Shown here: piece after piece, positions 4,819-12,390 of the stretch
How the letters are laid out: every line of letters begins with the position of its first letter
Position numbering within the stretch: position 1 is the first letter of the stretch
Source of the DNA: Roseobacter fucihabitans
GTDB lineage: Bacteria > Pseudomonadota > Alphaproteobacteria > Rhodobacterales > Rhodobacteraceae
Length of the DNA stretch: 64,000 nucleotides
Direction: 5' to 3'
Assembly (NCBI RefSeq): GCF_014337925.2
Contig: NZ_CP143423.1
Location: 1,456,501-1,520,500, forward strand
Made by a program: the position numbers and the translations under genes
The notes under the pieces: generated by a model
What the model was told of the DNA's origin: nothing
Databases searched by the model: none
Seen by the model: only the letters and a program-made list of their open reading frames with translations

Positions 4819-7800
4819 TCAGGTTGCTGCACCCAAAAGGGCCGCGTTGCCCCCCGATGCGGTTGTGTCCACGCAAACATGGCGCTCAGAGAGCACCCGC
4901 GCGGTATCGGGCCGTCCTGGGATCAGGGGCGTGATCGGGCCGTCGCGTTTGGCCAATGCGCGCTCAATGGCCTCGCCGGTTTCTGTATCGCCCCACCACA
5001 GGACACCGCCATAGGCGGGTCCGGTGATCAGGGCTTGCGGCGCGATGGTTCCGGTGGCCGCGACGGCGACACCGCCCAGGGCCTGGACCGCACGCATCTG
5101 GGCCGCGGTGGTTTCAGGTCCCGGTCCCATGCACAAAAGCCCAGGGCGGGGCAGGGTGCTCAGCCGGTTGGATTCGCCGGTTGGACCGGGCAGGCTCTGG
5201 GCGATCATTGGCGTGGGGGGTACGGGGCAGGGCGGGGAGTTCCGCCATCTTCTGCGCCCATATTGCCTCAGAGGTTTCGCGGTCCGGCGCAGAGAAACGC
5301 GGCAGGTAATTGGGCCCACCCGCTTTGGGACCGGTGCCCGAAAGGCCCTCACCGCCAAAGGGTTGGCTGCCGACGATCGCGCCGATCTGGTTGCGGTTGA
5401 CGTAGATATTGCCCGCCTCGATCCTCTCGGAGATATGCTGGACACGATCATCAATCCGCGTGTGCAGGCCGAAGGTCAGCCCGTAGCCGGTGGCGTTGAT
5501 CGTGTCGATTACCTGGTCAAGTTCGTGGGATTTGAAAGTGGCCATATGCAGGACCGGCCCGAAAATCTCGCGCTCCAGATCGGCGATGCTTGTGACTTTG
5601 ATCAGGGTCGGGGCGATAAAAGTCCCGCTATCGGGTGTCGTGAGTTCCGCCAGAACGCGACCCTCGCGACGCGCCTGCGCAATGTGATCGGCAATGCCCT
5701 TGCGGGCGGTCTCGTCGATCACGGGACCCACATCGGTGGAAAGATGCCAGGGCATACCAAGGCGCAGCGCGTCCATCGCACCAGTCAACATGCGGGTGAA
5801 ATCCTCGGCGATGTCTTCCTGAACATAGAGGCAGCGCAGCGCGGAGCAGCGTTGGCCCGCCGATTGAAATGCGCTTTCAATCACCGATTGAACGGCTTGC
5901 TCCGGCAGGGCGGTGCTGTCCACGATCATCGCGTTGAGCCCGCCGGTTTCGGCAATGAGCGGCGTGCCGGGCGCGCAGTTTTGCGCCATGGCGGCGCGGA
6001 TGCGCAACGCTGTTGCGGTGGAGCCGGTAAAGGCCACCCCGCCGACGCGCGCATCCGATGTCAACAAAGCTCCGATATCCCCGCCGCCGGGCAGCAGTTG
6101 CAGAGCCGCGCGCGGCACCCCGGCCTCATGCAGGATTTCCACGGCAAAATAGGCGCTTAGAGGCGTTTGTTCAGCTGGTTTTGCCAGCACGGCATTGCCT
6201 GCGGCAAGGGCTGCCGTGACCTGACCGCAGAAGATCGCGAAGGGGAAGTTCCAGGGCGATATGCACACAAAAACCCCCGCAGGCGGCGTATTGGTGGCCT
6301 GCGCTGCGTAATAGCGCAGGAAATCGACCCCTTCGCGCAATTCGGCCACGCAGTCGGGCAAACCTTTGCCCGCCTCGCGCGCAAGCAACGCAAACAGCGC
6401 GCCATACCGCTCCTCCATCAGGTCTGCCGCGCGCAACAGCGTGGTGCGGCGTTCTTCAAGGGGGGCGGCCCATTCCTGTGCCTGCGCAAAGGCCGATGCG
6501 ACATCCTTCGCGGTCGCGTTTTGTACGGTGCCGGGGGAATCCTGTGGATCGGCTGGGTTCTGAACCGTCACAGTGGTACCATTCGCGTCGACGTCACCAG
6601 CCAGTAGCGGTGTCGCTTTCCAGTGATGCCGGGCAAAGGCACCGCGTGCCGTCTCGATCCGCTCCAGCGTCTGCGTATGGGCCAGATCGAACCCCTTGGC
6701 GTTGGCGCGCAGCGGCAGGAAAAGCTCCGGCCCCTTAGGGATTTGCGGTCCGGCATTTTGCGTTAACATCCCGAAGGGGTCCGCCGCCACGACCTCGGGT
6801 GGAACGTTTTCATCGACGATCTGATTGACGAAACTGGAATTCGCACCGTTTTCCAGCAGACGCCGCACCAGATAGGCCAGCAGATCCTTATGCGCGCCCA
6901 CGGGGGCATAAATCCGGCAGCGCGTCTTGTTTTGCGCCATGACCAGCTTGTGCAGGGTTTCGCCCATCCCATGCAGGCGCTGGAACTCATAGGTTCCCGC
7001 ATCTTGCGCAATTTCCAGAATGGCGGCGACGGTATGGGCGTTATGCGTGGCGAATTGCGGGTAAATCCGGTCGGTCATGCCCAACAGCTTTTTCGCGTTG
7101 CAAATATAGGACACATCGGTCGCGGCCTTATGGGTATAGACGGGGAAACCGTCGATGCCTTCGACCTGCGCGCGCTTGATTTCAGTGTCCCAATAGGCCC
7201 CCTTCACCAAGCGCACCATGATTTTGCGGTCGTGACGCTGGGCCATATCATAAAGCGCATCAATCACGGTCCCGGCGCGCGGCCCATAAGCCTGCACCAC
7301 GATGCCGAAGCCATCCCAGCCCGCCAGAGCAGGTTCGCTCATAACCTTTTCGATAACGTCCAGCGAAAGTGCGAGCCGGTCGGCCTCCTCTGCATCAACG
7401 TTAAGGCCCATTCCCGCCGATTTCGCCAGCAATGCCAAGGCGCGCAGACGCGGCACCAGATCGGTCATCACGGCCTCTTCCTGGGCGACCTCATAGCGTG
7501 GGTGCAGGGCGGACAGCTTGACGGATATGCCTGGATTGCGCCGGATGTCCTGCGCAGTGCAGGCCGTGGCAATCGCGGAGATCGCACGGGAATAACTCAG
7601 GTGATACCGCTTGGCATCCGCTTCGGTGCGGGCGGCCTCACCCAGCATATCATAGGAGTAGGTAAAGCCAATTTTCTCCATGTTTGCCGCGCGTTGCATA
7701 GCGGCATTGATGTTCTCTCCAAGAACGAACTGACGCCCCATCTCTTTCATGGCGCGGCTCACGGCGGTCCGGATCACGGGTTCACCAAGGCGCTTTACCG

Positions 7801-8242
7801 CAGCACGTAAATGGCGCACCGGGCCGGGGTGCTCATCATCCAGCACTCGGCCTGTCAGCATCAGCGCCCAGGTCGAAGCGTTCACCAGGCTGGAGGTGGA
7901 ATGACCCAAGTGGCGCCCCCAATCGGAGGGGGCGATCTTATCCTCGATCAACGCGTCAATTGTATCGGCATCAGGCACGCGCAACAGCGCTTCGGCCAGA
8001 CACATCAGCGCAACGCCCTCATCGGTAGACAGACCGTATTCTGCGAGAAAAACCTCCATTAACCCGGGCGCTGTTGAGCCGCGGATATCACGCACGAGTT
8101 GGGCTGCCTTTGCGCTGATCGTCTGTCTGGTGTCAGGGGAAAGCTGCGCTCCCTCCATCAACTCCGTCAGAACGCGATGGGGGTCAGCATAAGTGCCAGC
8201 ATCGATTTGGTGGCGCAGGGAAAGTGAGATGTCACGAGCCAT
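4819..8242 (-). CDS. putA: Bifunctional proline dehydrogenase/P5C dehydrogenase PutA, with a 3' frameshift
   Basis: PutA oxidises proline to glutamate in two steps. The proline dehydrogenase barrel occupies the first half (GLNVDAEEADRL, VRLVKGAYWD) and the P5C dehydrogenase the second, with the catalytic Glu (IAETGGLNAM) and Cys (GQRCSALRC). The first frame ends at 5114. The conserved PutA C-terminus (SLPGPTGESNRLS through VDTTASGGNAALL) continues in the next frame to a TGA at 4819. Removing one G from the run of six at 5215-5220 joins both frames into a 1140-residue protein, a usual length for the family. The start at 8242 (MARDISLSLR) has a GGAG upstream. The frameshift could be real decay, slippage or a sequencing error. 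It is divergent from an Lrp-type regulator. Confidence 0.9.
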
Positions 8243-8327
8243 CTGGGAACTCCGGGAATGAATTTTCCCTAGTATACAGATAAGTAACCAGTCATAATGA
8301 CCTAAATTTGATGCCATGGGAGGCAAA
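8243..8327. promoter_or_regulatory. putA-regulator divergent promoter region
   Basis: The 85-bp gap separates the divergent starts of putA and the Lrp-type regulator. It contains the perfect 11-bp palindrome GTCATAATGAC at 8291-8301 in an AT-rich stretch, a plausible operator for the regulator. GGGAGG at 8318-8323 serves as ribosome binding site for the regulator start at 8328. The role is inferred from position only. Confidence 0.45.
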
Positions 8328-8828
8328 ATGGTTAAATTTGGTGATCAAAACGAGCAAAGTGAGCAAGCAAGCCTTGATCGATTTGATCGCACGATTCTCT
8401 CGGTGCTCGCCGAAGACGGGCGGATCAGCATCACGGATTTGGCTAAACGCATTGGTTTGTCGAAATCACCGACGCAGGCGCGGTTACGCCGTCTGGAACA
8501 GAGCGGGATCATTATTGGATATCGCGCCTTGCTGGATCCTATTCAATTGGGATTGGATCACGTCGCTTTCGTCGAAGTCCGCTTGAGCGATACGCGTGAA
8601 GCCGCGCTCAAGGCGTTCAATGCGGCGGTTGCACGGGTACCGGAGATCGAGCAAGCCCATATGATCGCTGGTAATTTTGACTACCTGCTGAAGGTGCGAA
8701 CGCGCGATATGCAGCGCTACCGGCAGTTCCTGGGCGAGACGATTTCAATGCTGCCCCATATCGCCGGCACCTCGACTTACGTCGCGATGGAGGCCGTCAA
8801 GGAAACGATGCTGGCGGAGACCTCTTGA
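8328..8828 (+). CDS. putR: Lrp/AsnC family transcriptional regulator (PutR-like)
   Basis: This 166-residue protein has an N-terminal helix-turn-helix (DRFDRTILSVLAEDGRIS, then LAKRIGLSKSPTQARLRRLE) followed by an Lrp-type ligand-binding RAM domain (FVEVRLSD, MIAGNFDYLLKV). In alphaproteobacteria, divergent Lrp-type proteins of this kind activate putA in response to proline, and its position here fits that role. Start 8328 is chosen because GGGAGG lies four bases upstream; an ATG at 8316 in the same frame overlaps that ribosome binding site. The proline effector is inferred from context, not from the sequence. Confidence 0.88.
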   Translation: MVKFGDQNEQSEQASLDRFDRTILSVLAEDGRISITDLAKRIGLSKSPTQARLRRLEQSGIIIGYRALLDPIQLGLDHVAFVEVRLSDTREAALKAFNAAVARVPEIEQAHMIAGNFDYLLKVRTRDMQRYRQFLGETISMLPHIAGTSTYVAMEAVKETMLAETS

Positions 8829-8859
8829 CCTGGGGCTGGCGCGTGTCATTTTCGATATC

Positions 8860-9414
8860 ATGAAACATTTAATATTTGTTCTGTCGTTCTGTGCGACACC
8901 GCTCTTTGCCGACTGCCCTGCGGTCACCGATCATAGCTCCGAGATGGAGAGACTTTTTGAGCAGGCGCGCGCGGCGCCAAACGATATGGCCGGGCGGGGG
9001 ATCTCTGACAAGATGTGGCAGATATGGCTTCAAGCGCCCGATGAGGCCGCCCAAGCCACTCTGGACCGAGGCATGCGCCAGCGCGAGGTGTCCGATTTTG
9101 TCGGCGCGCTCGATGAATTTTCGCGTCTTGTGGCCTATTGCCCGCATTATGCGGAAGGGTTCAATCAGCGCGCCTTTATTCATTTTCTGCGTAAAGACTA
9201 TGCAAATGCGCTGAGTGATCTGGATCAGGCTTTGGCCTTGTCACCGTTTCATGTTGGAGCGCGCTCGGGGCGGGCGTTGAGCTTGATGAGCCTTGGACGG
9301 ATCCGCGAGGCGCGCGAAGATCTGTTGTTGGCACTGGAGAATAACCCATGGCTTTCAGAGCGTTTCTTGATGTCGCAAGGCGGGCCATTGGCCTTGCCGG
9401 GAAAAGACATCTGA
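8860..9414 (+). CDS. Secreted tetratricopeptide-repeat protein
   Basis: The 184-residue protein begins with a Sec-type signal peptide (MKHLIFVLSFCATPLFA, cleavage before DCPA) and is probably periplasmic. From about residue 75 it contains three TPR-like helical repeats (REVSDFVGALDEFSRLV, KDYANALSDLDQALAL, GRIREAREDLLLALENNP). Such repeats normally mediate protein contacts. No catalytic motif is seen. It follows the Lrp-type gene by 31 bp in the same direction and could be co-transcribed, but nothing ties it functionally to proline use. Confidence 0.85.
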   Translation: MKHLIFVLSFCATPLFADCPAVTDHSSEMERLFEQARAAPNDMAGRGISDKMWQIWLQAPDEAAQATLDRGMRQREVSDFVGALDEFSRLVAYCPHYAEGFNQRAFIHFLRKDYANALSDLDQALALSPFHVGARSGRALSLMSLGRIREAREDLLLALENNPWLSERFLMSQGGPLALPGKDI

Positions 9415-9619: not shown

Positions 9620-10760
9620 TAAAACATTTTGCATTTAATCTGCGGCATATCCGGCAGCTTTGAGGAGGTTTCCAGCATTCGCTTGGATCAAACAGATCAC
9701 AAATGTCGCCGAGGGCCTGGAAGAGTGCATCGAACGTTTTTAGCCCGATCGGTCTCAGATGGGCTTTGAGAAAGCCATCTCGATCATTGGCCGTCAGGGT
9801 ATTGTGCAGCAATGTCCCGAGAGGTGGGGTTGAGGTCGCGGGAGTAGGGCGGCAAGAACAGGAACCAGCACGCGCTTTCTTAACGCCTGCGCTGCGCGGG
9901 GGCTTTTGTGGGTGGAAAGATTGCCCCTTGCCCGGCAGTTGATTGCAAAGCAATTAAGGAGAGGAGAGAATGGCTACCGTTCCGGGTTCCAACGCAGGTG
10001 TCGAAGGCGCGCCCGTCCAGTGCACCCGTGATCACCCACGGCGCGATCAGCGCAGCCCGGCGATGAAAGTCTGCGTACCCCGTTTTCCAAAGGGCGCGGT
10101 GCCAAGGAGGCGCTCGCCTATAGGTGCCCGTCCGCACAGCCGCGTGACATTGGTTTTTACGGCTGTCTCATCCACTGGCCGTCAGGGTATTGCGCAGCAA
10201 TGTCCCCAGAAGCAATAAAGACCAGTCTGTGTGGCTCCTGGCGCATGCGCGGCTGGCGGTGGTTGATCCACCCCCGCCTTGCCCTGCGCAGGGCAGGCCG
10301 ATTACGTTCCCGTGCGATAAGTCCTTTTTTCATATAAGAACCCGGCGCGTACCAAGGCGCGGTGAATTGATGAGAGGTGAACAGATACGCCAGACGTGTC
10401 TTCCAGCGCGCCGGATAGTTCATGCAATGTTATGTCTGGTTCGGCACGGATAACCCCGATTAAGAAATCCTTATACGGTGCCAGCTGGCCAAATCGGCCC
10501 ACCGGCCTGCCCTGTGGTCTGGGCGTGACGTCGCGCCGCTCTCGTTTGTCCGCAGCATAACGCACCGCCGTTGCCGCACTGACACCAAAAATGCGCCCTG
10601 CTGCACGACAAGAGTTCCCAGCAGCAACATACCCGCAAATCCGGTGCCGAAGATCTAAAGAAAGAGGTTTGCCCATCATCCACCTCCACACTGAAAATGA
10701 AGCAGACAAAGACTCCTTTAGGAAACACAAATCAATTCAGATTAAACGCAAACCGCTTTA
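9620..10760 (-). mobile_element. Degenerate IS630-family element, copy 1
   Basis: The element is bounded by TA dinucleotides at 9620-9621 and 10759-10760, the expected IS630 target. The ends form imperfect inverted repeats: TAAAACATTTTGCATTTAAT on the left and, read on the other strand, TAAAGCGGTTTGCGTTTAAT. A second copy lies at 32379-33137 and an end fragment at 12680-12774. Inside, a 35-bp segment occurs twice (9788-9822 and 10176-10210, two mismatches), so this copy has been rearranged. It is not expected to move by itself. Confidence 0.85.
9640..10676 (-). pseudogene. IS630-family transposase, multiply frameshifted
   Basis: The intact N-terminus starts at 10676 (MGKPLSLDLRHRICGYVAAG) and carries the helix-turn-helix region typical of IS630 transposases. 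The rest is scattered over three frames: LIARERNRPALRRARRGWIN, then DETAVKTN (first catalytic Asp) with GRAPIGERLL, then APWVITGALDGRAFDT, then FDALFQALGDICDLFDP at the C-terminus. An insertion of about 42 bp duplicating C-terminal-coding sequence separates VFI from DET. Stops and frame changes make it non-functional. Confidence 0.85.
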
Positions 10761-10819
10761 AGGCTTATTTGGGCTGGCATGTTCGGCGCGATATCCTTAT
10801 GGCAAGCCTTATCAACAAT

Positions 10820-11150
10820 GCGGACGTGGTGGAATCGGTAGACACAAGAGACTTAAACCATTTTTTTGAGTGCCTCGGGGGAAACCCTGGGAGTAGAACT
10901 GCTCAAATTCGGGGAAAGCTAACGGCCTGAACCAGGGTCCATGCCAATCCCGAGCCAAGCCGACCAAAGGGTCATCCAGGTCGGAAGGTGTAGAGACTAG
11001 ACGGGCAGCACCTAAGACCGGGGGACCGGTGACGGTGAAGGGATAGTCCAGACCACAAACGGCGTATTGCGCCGGCGGCGAAAGTCGTAGCGGGTAAGAA
11101 AATCTCTCGATCGTATGATCGTGCGGGTTCGAGTCCCGCCGTCCGCACCA
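10820..11150 (+). tRNA. tRNA-Leu(UAA) interrupted by a group I intron
   Basis: The 5' exon is 10820-10854 and the 3' exon 11099-11150. Joined, they give an 87-nt class II tRNA with CCA encoded. The acceptor GCGGACG pairs with CGTCCGC, the anticodon stem AGAGA pairs with TCTCT, the loop reads C-T-T-A-A-A-A (anticodon UAA), the long variable arm has CGATC and GATCG, and the T-arm is GCGGG-TTCGAGT-CCCGC. The intron sits inside the anticodon, after the first anticodon base (U34), the same place as the well-known cyanobacterial and plastid tRNA-Leu(UAA) intron. The gene lies 59 bp after an IS630 remnant. Confidence 0.93.
10855..11098 (+). ncRNA. Self-splicing group I intron in tRNA-Leu(UAA)
   Basis: The 244-nt intron follows a U (5' splice site) and ends in G. 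Helices visible by eye: P1, exon ACUU with GAGU at 10868-10871 including the U-G wobble at the splice site; P4, TCGGG 10909-10913 with CCCGA 10949-10953; P6, CCGACC 10960-10965 with GGTCGG 10979-10984; P7, GACTA 10995-10999 with TAGTC 11044-11048; P9, CGGCG 11060-11064 with CGCCG 11070-11074. The Q-region string GAGCCAAGCC and the core AGACTAGACGG are group I hallmarks. No homing endonuclease is encoded. The size and arrangement suggest the small tRNA subgroup (IC3-like). Confidence 0.92.
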
Positions 11151-11153
11151 AAA

Positions 11154-11169
11154 CAGACCTTAGGGTCTG
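11154..11169 (+). terminator. Hairpin just after tRNA-Leu
   Basis: CAGACC-TTAG-GGTCTG forms a six-pair stem with a tetraloop four bases after the tRNA 3' end. There is no T-run after it, so termination is possible but weakly supported. Confidence 0.35.
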
Positions 11170-11189
11170 AAACTGCCCTTAACGCTATG

Positions 11190-11539
11190 AACGGAAACGA
11201 TATTTCCGGGGTTCTAGCTCCATCATTTCGGCAGTATTTGATACGGGTTTTAAGGGCCAGTTTTAGCACCAAACGACGCAGGTTGACCTGTGCGCTACCG
11301 GGCGTTTCCCAGATTTTCCAAGGGCTTGCGAGAAACATGATCGCTGGTTCTAGTTTTTCCTCAAAACTCCCCTTCGGCTCGGCTTGTTTTTGCATTTGTT
11401 CGGCCAAAATCGCCTTGCCACGCTCCAGCGCGACGATCTCGCCTTCATAGACGGGTACAATCGCGTCGCTTTGCGCGTTCACGATACGACCCAGCAGCGC
11501 GTCGATGCGTTTATCAATGCGGGACAGCTCTTTCTTAGT
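11190..11539 (-). pseudogene. C-terminal remnant of a large serine recombinase
   Basis: The minus strand encodes about 115 residues that match the C-terminal coiled-coil part of large serine recombinases: ELSRIDKRIDALLGRIVNAQ, then YEGEIVALERGKAILAE, then EPAIMFLASPWKIWE and RRLVLKLA. The resolvase catalytic domain and zinc ribbon are absent. On its upstream side the sequence switches directly into the truncated IS1595 transposase, and its downstream end stops about 40 bp short of the tRNA-Leu 3' end. It is a leftover of an integrated element, perhaps one that used the tRNA locus. Confidence 0.75.
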
Positions 11540-12306
11540 GGTAAACGCCGATGTACCCGCGCTTGAGCAATGACCAGAAGCTTTCAATTCCGTTGGTGTG
11601 CACCATGTCGCGGACATACTCGCCAGCAGAGTGACGAACCGTCTTGTGGGTGTAGCCCTTGACCTCAAGGCTTTGTAGGCGCGGACTCGTCTGTAACGAC
11701 TTCGCCACCCTCTGGTGCGTTTTCCTGCGCGAAACCAACCAGTGTGGCCGCATTGGTGCGCTTAACAGGCTTGGCGACAACTTCGCCGCTTTCGTCCCGC
11801 ATGCCAACGACAGCGATCTTGCCAACCGCGCCACGGCCCGCTTTCAGCTTCTTATCGGCGTGTTTGTTCTTCTCTTTTCCGCCCACATAGGTTTCATCCA
11901 CCTGAACTTGGCCGTCCATCTTGTTACTATTGCCGCCCATCCAAGTTTCGCGGATGCGCTGCGCAAGGAACCATACTGTTTTCTGAGTGACACCCAATTC
12001 GCGAGCCATCTGAGTGCTGGAGATGCCCTTACGGGCGCTGGTGAGCATGTAGATGGCAAGCAGCCATTTGAGCAAAGGAAGGCGACTCTCTGCAAGGACT
12101 GTGCCAGTGCGGACGCTGAAATGCTTGCGGCAATCTTTGCAGCGATAGGCCATTGGCTTGTGATCTTTACACTCAGTCACGGCAACCGAGCCGCAGTGAC
12201 CACATACGGGTTCATCATTCCAATGACGCGCTTCAAAGAATTGACGCGCCGCTTCCTCAGTAGGAAATTTCTGAAAGAACTCAAATGTGCTAAGTGTATC
12301 GGTCAT
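11535..12306 (-). pseudogene. IS1595-family (ISXO2-like) transposase, frameshifted and truncated
   Basis: The start at 12306 (MTDTLSTFEFFQKF) is followed by a zinc ribbon (CGHCGS and CKDCRKHF), the SxMARELGV-type helix-turn-helix and the catalytic VDETYVGGKEK. The first frame ends after VVTDESAPTKP at 11665. A one-base shift near 11680 restores LEVKGYTHKTVRHSAGEYV and HTNGIESFWSLLKRG, containing the final catalytic positions. The protein then stops after GYIGVYH, lacking the usual C-terminus of some 60 residues. It is non-functional as it stands. Confidence 0.85.
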
Positions 12307-12390
12307 CACGCTAAATCCCTTTTCTGAAATTAAGCTAGCCAAAACGGATATGGCGTTAAGCCAAAATTGGCCAGTTAGGTATATAGATCC
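11535..12390 (-). mobile_element. Truncated IS1595-family element
   Basis: The element carries an ISXO2-like transposase and lacks its downstream end, which is cut at about 11537 where serine recombinase sequence begins. Its upstream end lies near 12390, where IstA-like sequence of an IS21 remnant starts, so it probably inserted into that older element. The outer boundaries are approximate because no clear repeat pair is left. Confidence 0.7.

Follow-up and report, generated by a model that had tools for sequence, protein, structure and literature searches.

Group I introns of the Agrobacterium type interrupt tRNA-Arg(CCU) in Alphaproteobacteria, and the Azoarcus intron resides in tRNA-Ile. 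Like the Roseobacter fucihabitans intron described here, these introns are small and contain no gene, but they are found in other tRNAs, and the exons of tRNA-Arg(CCU), as read by eye, join after the anticodon and not after U34. In tRNA-Leu(UAA), Vepritskiy et al. reportedly found a group I intron in 2002, in a gamma-proteobacterium from the deep subsurface. In cyanobacteria, a different bacterial group, Rudi et al. reportedly described in 2002 how the tRNA-Leu(UAA) intron and the whole locus underwent nested transfer. The cyanobacterial and plastid intron presumably shares insertion site and subgroup with the Roseobacter intron. The host tRNA is the same, an intron being placed in the tRNA-Leu(UAA) of cyanobacteria and plastids (PMC4033280, PMC4476775). 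A group I intron in tRNA-Leu-TAA is also present in Beggiatoa and Thiomargarita, its secondary structure and type being given there as undetermined; these hosts are Proteobacteria like Roseobacter, and the tRNA is the same, but they differ in bacterial class (PMC4853749). Group I introns in tRNA-Leu(UAA) are already a known class, and R. fucihabitans adds one.

The DNA analysed, here called the window, is a 64-kb stretch of the R. fucihabitans genome. The initial annotation had placed in it, at 10820-11150, a tRNA-Leu(UAA) gene split by a group I intron, had described the exons as a class II tRNA and the insertion as lying at the anticodon after U34, and had named the gene as the only tRNA of the window. 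These statements hold, and the coordinates are essentially right. With its intron option, ARAGORN finds a split class II tRNA-Leu(UAA) gene on the forward strand, with a spliced length of 87 nt, a complete cloverleaf and a long variable arm, and it places the intron between U34 and A35 (Table 1). When introns of 200-280 nt are allowed, this is the sole tRNA in the window, and the same run on 10 same-size first-order Markov windows gives none. ARAGORN without the intron option reports zero tRNAs in the window, and Rfam at the gathering threshold has no match within it. In the covariance-model search that the initial annotation had proposed, run over 10600-11400, RF00028 (Intron_gpI) matches 10845-11066 with 48.1 bits and an E value of 4.5e-11, slightly below the cut-off of 50. 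In the whole genome, at E up to 0.001, this model matches only the tRNA-Leu(UAA) intron. The authors of tRNAscan-SE 2.0 state that the detection of tRNA genes interrupted by group I introns was not part of its design (PMC8450103). Because default ARAGORN and Rfam overlooked the gene, and tRNAscan-SE 2.0 is not built for such cases, introned tRNA genes are easily missed.

Two other identities of the insertion were rejected. A homing-endonuclease intron would need room for a gene, for which 244 nt are too short, and the overlapping ORF 11012-11668 (-) has no Pfam match. An IStron does not fit either, as the transposase-like genes sit outside the tRNA gene.

Table 1. Features of the tRNA-Leu(UAA) locus of R. 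fucihabitans, in window coordinates
Feature	Position	Strand	Remarks	Evidence
Conserved flank	5114-9414		putA, regulator and TPR gene beside tRNA-Leu(UAA)	
putA	5114-8326	-		Pfam
Regulator called lrp	8316-8828	+		named by eye
TPR gene	8860-9414	+		Pfam
IS material and 5' exon	9733-10854	+	1122 bp; second copy at G000:C1 3456040-3457161 (L067 3041-4162)	
Transposase-like gene	10302-10730		Tc3-like HTH	weak match, below cut-off
5' exon of tRNA-Leu(UAA)	10820-10854	+	last base U34	ARAGORN with intron option
Group I intron	10855-11098	+	244 nt, final base G	RF00028, ARAGORN boundaries, covariation
P1	10851-10857 with 10865-10871	+	5' strand takes 4 bases from the exon end and 3 from the intron start	93.8% paired
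P2	10874-10880 with 10885-10891	+	GAAA loop	two-sided changes at 7/7 pairs; 92.2% paired
P3	10899-10904 with 11003-11008	+	one pair UA in 36 rows, CG in 19	100% paired
P4	10909-10913 with 10949-10953	+	encloses P5	100% paired
P6	10960-10965 with 10979-10984	+		two-sided changes at 4/6 pairs; 92.7% paired
P7	10995-10999 with 11044-11048	+	encloses P8	100% paired
P8, outer stem	11009-11012 with 11034-11037	+		100% paired; inner stem 89.6%
P9	11060-11064 with 11070-11074	+		94.1% paired
Hairpin after P9	11076-11079 with 11084-11087	+	GAAA loop	100% paired
3' exon of tRNA-Leu(UAA)	11099-11150	+	CCA encoded	ARAGORN with intron option
Large serine recombinase, C-terminus remnant	11180-11536	-	about 30 nt from tRNA end	tblastn
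IS1595-family transposase	11665-12342			Pfam

Helices P1-P9 were drawn on the window sequence from one row of an alignment of 55 tRNA-Leu introns (row L143 is miscut at its first bases), and the pairs were counted over the whole alignment. Pairing is found in 96.2% of 2967 cells (shuffled mean 82.5) and two-sided changes at 32 of the 56 pairs (shuffled mean 25.1), in shuffles that ignore the relatedness of the introns. The covariation score is 0.360, compared to 0.132 for the shuffled alignments, and none of 500 shuffles reaches the observed pairing, changes and score. Sliding the partner columns by 1-3 lowers the pairing to 29-47%. The helices P1, P4, P6, P7 and P9 and the terminal G, which had been called visible in the sequence alone, could thus be drawn on the window, with covariation over 55 introns in support of the helices. 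The terminal G is at 11098; in the other introns it was demanded by the pattern or by the exon rule, and is not independent support. At the 5' splice site, a U-G wobble (10854 with 10868) is found in all 54 rows with letters, its U being imposed by the exon rule and its G being free. P5 is 100% paired, and one of its pairs is 32 times GC and 23 times CG. P7 corresponds to the guanosine site of known group I introns, and its one free pair is AU in 47 rows and GC in 8; a pattern that includes the 3' strand of the helix was used to fetch 42 of the 55 rows, so that part of its constancy follows from the choice of rows. With a P3-P9 core and a conserved P7, the intron is a member of group I. Resemblance to the Azoarcus architecture would place it in subgroup IC3.

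The R. fucihabitans genome has 35 RF00005 matches, of which ARAGORN names 34, with CAA, CAG, GAG and UAG as the only Leu anticodons; the list lacks Tyr, Ile and Ala-UGC and is an incomplete tRNA census. One RF00005 match of 111 nt (L066, G000:C1:286134-286244; 34.7 bits) is not called by ARAGORN. A pattern for intronless tRNA-Leu(UAA), which recovers 14 of 14 intronless Roseobacter loci, has no match in the genome. The second intact tRNA-Leu(UAA) that, according to the initial annotation, would make this copy a pseudogene was looked for in the whole genome, with RF00005 and ARAGORN and with the intronless pattern, and none was found. TTA accounts for 10 of 260 Leu codons and is present in all five neighbouring genes counted. 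Since no other tRNA-Leu(UAA) was found, the reading of UUA should depend on splicing of the intron. Judging from the sequence, the intron is probably spliced in the cell, UUA decoding probably relies on self-splicing, and the tRNA gene is likely to be essential. It is hardly credible that the copy is dead and that another tRNA reads UUA. The IS material upstream and the remnants downstream of the gene would suit such decay, but the cloverleaf and the intron core are complete, and neither the failure of these searches to find another tRNA-Leu(UAA) nor the TTA codons in the five genes agree with it.

Related introns are not rare in the family. RF00028 matches at E up to 0.001 occur in 31 of 394 Rhodobacteraceae genomes (14 above the cut-off), a lower bound, because G052 and G058 are introned according to BLAST yet absent from the matches. 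The host tRNA, read by eye for 30 of the 32 matches (G167:C77 and G169 were left out), is Leu(UAA) in 20 cases including the window, Arg(CCU) in 5, Arg(UCU) in 2 and Thr-like in 3. The expectation that alphaproteobacterial introns reside mainly in tRNA-Arg is thus not borne out in Rhodobacteraceae, where tRNA-Leu is the commonest host (20 of the 30 introns read). In a tree containing 67 of 69 rows, with hosts assigned by eye, introns group by host tRNA (7 changes, compared to a shuffled mean of 21.2); as drawn, it nests the Arg introns among those of tRNA-Leu, with weak support at the outer forks. A pattern scan of genome contigs gave at least 118 stretches, of which 102 of 118 were parsed as introned tRNA-Leu by the exon rule and 16 remained unparsed. 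Among the matches listed (118), 101 are from Pseudomonadota, 13 from Acidobacteriota, and one each from Bacteroidota and Kerfeldbacteria, with 2 unplaced. Many of these stretches come from MAGs and may be misbinned; isolates include Rhodophyticola porphyridii and Carnimonas nigrificans. G067 carries an intact introned tRNA-Leu and, besides it, a second intron whose adjoining 3' exon, recognized by eye, is tRNA-Leu-like but decayed (L071, G067:C1:2943121-2943338). A tRNA-Leu intron in Roseobacter was not named in the literature titles and abstract openings searched, subscription journals being mostly outside this search.

In R. fucihabitans and 15 other Roseobacter genomes, tRNA-Leu(UAA) is found beside putA, the regulator and the TPR gene; the comparison covers 15 of the 18 other genomes of the genus, as G001, G008 and G016 had no match and were left out. 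The exons at this one locus are of three unlike kinds, present in 7, 6 and 3 genomes, the last being R. fucihabitans, G014 and G009. The R. fucihabitans exons agree with those of G009 and G014 at 86 of 87 positions, compared to 66-71 of 87-89 columns for the 13 others, and the difference spans the whole gene, including both strands of the acceptor stem. Within the third kind, G014 is introned and G009 is intronless, with a 5' exon identical to that of R. fucihabitans. Altogether 14 of the genus genomes compared are intronless, 13 of them also with exons unlike those of R. fucihabitans. G017, which is intronless and of another exon kind, has the R. fucihabitans anticodon stem and loop. In 6.8-10 kb around the gene, no second intact tRNA-Leu(UAA) was found in 15 Roseobacter genomes.

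The flanking genes tell of different relationships. On the flank tree, R. fucihabitans is the sister of G013 (98/98), whose tRNA-Leu(UAA) is of the first kind, intronless and unlike. A single flank clade of R. fucihabitans, G009 and G014 is rejected (p-AU 9.6e-5). The exon kinds hardly follow this tree, on which they need 6 changes, a count no higher in 41 of 200 shuffles (shuffled mean 7.3). The R. fucihabitans kind alone needs 3, which may be gains or losses, and 2 of which are forced by well-supported branches. Two local observations can be added. In G018, a 41-nt 5' relic (L367 4092-4132) corresponds to positions 1-41 of a different tRNA-Leu allele; it lies 126 nt upstream of the functional tRNA-Leu gene, start to start. 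In G009, short repeats that look, by eye, like the 3' end of the tRNA with its trailer recur 3' of the intronless gene (L069, downstream of 5263).

Tateyamaria (L190) and Hoeflea (L120) have exactly the R. fucihabitans exons, and the 5' exon is identical also in R. cerasinus (L068), whose contig NZ_BLIV01000006 bears the same intron as G014. With one mismatch allowed, 2 of 394 family genomes contain the 3' exon, and both are introned; the sample has about one genome per genus and does not include G009 and G014. Among the matches listed, the introns closest to that of R. fucihabitans are from Tateyamaria (84.4% identity), Rhodophyticola (83.3%), a member of the Rhodobacteraceae (82.9%), Hoeflea, which belongs to another order (80.5%), G343 (78.9%) and the congener G014 (75.9%). 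In the intron tree, R. fucihabitans lies inside a cluster of 12 (95/94) with weak inner forks, and Hoeflea pairs with G343 (100/99). An intron clade of R. fucihabitans and G014 is not rejected by the AU test (p 0.169, bootstrap not settled). Tateyamaria L190 and, in another genus, L135 have the R. fucihabitans allele at the same locus, next to putA, the regulator and the TPR gene; in G343 the allele adjoins the TPR gene. The conserved flank genes are found at 3 of 8 other-genus loci of the exact or near exon kind (L190, L135 and L368); at L223, L120, L216 and L133, the set is absent, with a weak match at most.

Remains of mobile elements adjoin the gene. The recombinase remnant at its 3' side is 71% identical over 119 aa to a recombinase of R. 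porphyridii (tblastn, E 6.7e-59), which has PF07508 and PF13408 domains and also abuts an introned tRNA-Leu. In G014, a tyrosine integrase takes the place of this remnant 3' of the tRNA. The ORF 11012-11668 (-), which runs across the tRNA, was rejected as a gene, since as a whole it has no Pfam match and only the remnant within it is recognizable. The second copy of the 1122-bp stretch is 99.2% identical and stops exactly at the 5' splice site, after which unrelated DNA near katG follows; on the katG side, 18 other genus genomes were searched and no conserved upstream region was found. This second 5' exon could have arisen by chance, from a splicing intermediate that was copied, or through crossing over within the anticodon loop.

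Introned tRNA-Leu genes also occur on viral contigs and plasmids. In viral contigs, 44 of 119 loose-pattern loci match the intron core, and the other 75 are probably tandem tRNAs. An HNH-like ORF is present inside the intron in 5 of the 11 viral stretches examined (L281, L286, L288, L299 and L303); these introns measure 693-756 nt, the ORF lies between the 5' exon and the core, and Pfam confirms HNH for L281 and L299. That 7 of the 10 ORFs of four introned viral contigs match PHROGs fits phages without proving them. A review states that the phage introns observed to its date were all in protein genes (PMC3984707), and an introned phage tRNA-Leu was not named in the titles and abstract openings searched, again mostly outside subscription journals. 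A similar stretch, covering at least 80% of the query, is found in 1266 of 72,556 plasmid records, with about 72% identity among the matches listed; the intron itself was read in two of them. These two, L373 6001-6305 (NC_004464.2, pCTX-M3) and L374, contain an unannotated tRNA-Leu(UAA) with a group I intron. The neighbours of the L373 copy are aac(3)-IId and an AAA ATPase gene, and IS elements lie near. An alphaproteobacterial source of this tRNA gene is hinted at by the 92.4% identity of the L373 copy to Enterovirga aerilata L147 over 353 bp. The presence of introned tRNA-Leu genes on such contigs and plasmids shows that they can travel. None of these is a shown donor to Roseobacter, and no intact donor element for introned tRNA-Leu(UAA) was found.

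In view of these data, we consider it likely, with a probability of roughly 75%, that the group I intron is spliced out of the pre-tRNA-Leu(UAA) and that the whole introned gene was swapped in place at its locus. Transcription would give a pre-tRNA whose 244-nt intron folds as a ribozyme. The end of the 5' exon, ACUU, would be aligned on the guide sequence of the intron in P1, a guanosine bound in P7 would cut after U34, and ligation at U34^A35 would give the normal 87-nt tRNA; these steps are taken from established group I chemistry. The whole gene, exons and intron, probably replaced another gene at this very position of the chromosome, because the nearest relative by flanks has an unlike intronless gene and the R. 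fucihabitans exons equal those of Tateyamaria and Hoeflea. Hence the intron would not simply have been inserted into the gene kind of the nearest relative; instead, the entire introned gene would have been exchanged. This might have happened by recombination between chromosomes that have the locus in common. Alternatively, integrative elements or phages may have been involved that either make use of the tRNA gene or have it on board, since recombinase genes or their remnants adjoin the tRNA and introned tRNA-Leu is found on viral contigs and plasmids. Intronless G009 could have lost the intron or received the allele without it, and the anticodon stem and loop of G017 could reflect a partial exchange. 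The initial annotation had offered horizontal acquisition or an unrecognised lineage as the origin. The latter has some support, such introns being widespread in Alphaproteobacteria; so has the former, as the gene was probably acquired, but with the exons brought along.

The opposite course of events, in which the introned gene is ancestral at the locus in part of the family and other members lost the intron or had the gene replaced, appears rather unlikely. The shared locus in R. fucihabitans, G014, G009, L190 and L135, together with the TPR gene in G343 and the intron clade with G014 that the AU test leaves standing, would agree with it, and from the loci in L190, L135 and G343 the allele may be old in the family, with the other kinds as newcomers. 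However, 13 of the 14 intronless genus genomes, including the flank sister G013, have different exons, which loss of the intron alone fails to explain, and the allele occurs in just 2 of the 394 sampled family genomes. An ancestor with two or three tandem tRNA-Leu(UAA) genes, one of them introned, from which lineages kept different copies, would account for the change in place without any foreign DNA, and the G018 relic of another allele beside a functional gene would be in line with it. This is nonetheless unlikely, considering that the stretches around the gene in 15 genomes hold no second intact copy, and that Hoeflea, from another order, has identical exons and a close intron away from the locus.

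It is very unlikely that the intron alone moved into the resident tRNA-Leu and converted a short run of exon bases along with it. Homing of this kind is suggested by the HNH endonuclease ORFs in related introns of viral contigs, and a partial conversion could leave what is seen in the anticodon stem and loop of G017; but G017 is intronless, the R. fucihabitans exon difference runs through the entire gene up to both acceptor-stem strands, and an intron of this size has no space for a gene. It is also doubtful, though a more far-reaching version of the exchange, that the allele is itself mobile: as a single-copy, probably essential gene, an introned tRNA-Leu(UAA) might travel whole on phages, plasmids and integrative elements and oust the resident gene of one locus again and again. 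The intron, which interrupts the anticodon-loop DNA, could protect the gene against integrases or nucleases with that loop as their target, and the second 5' exon, a relic broken exactly after U34, would be a recombination scar.

Roseobacter offers a clean natural experiment, as a probably essential tRNA gene comes in three unlike forms at a single locus, and culturable species have it either with a ribozyme or without one. Both the exchange of tRNA genes and the cost or benefit of the intron thereby become directly testable.
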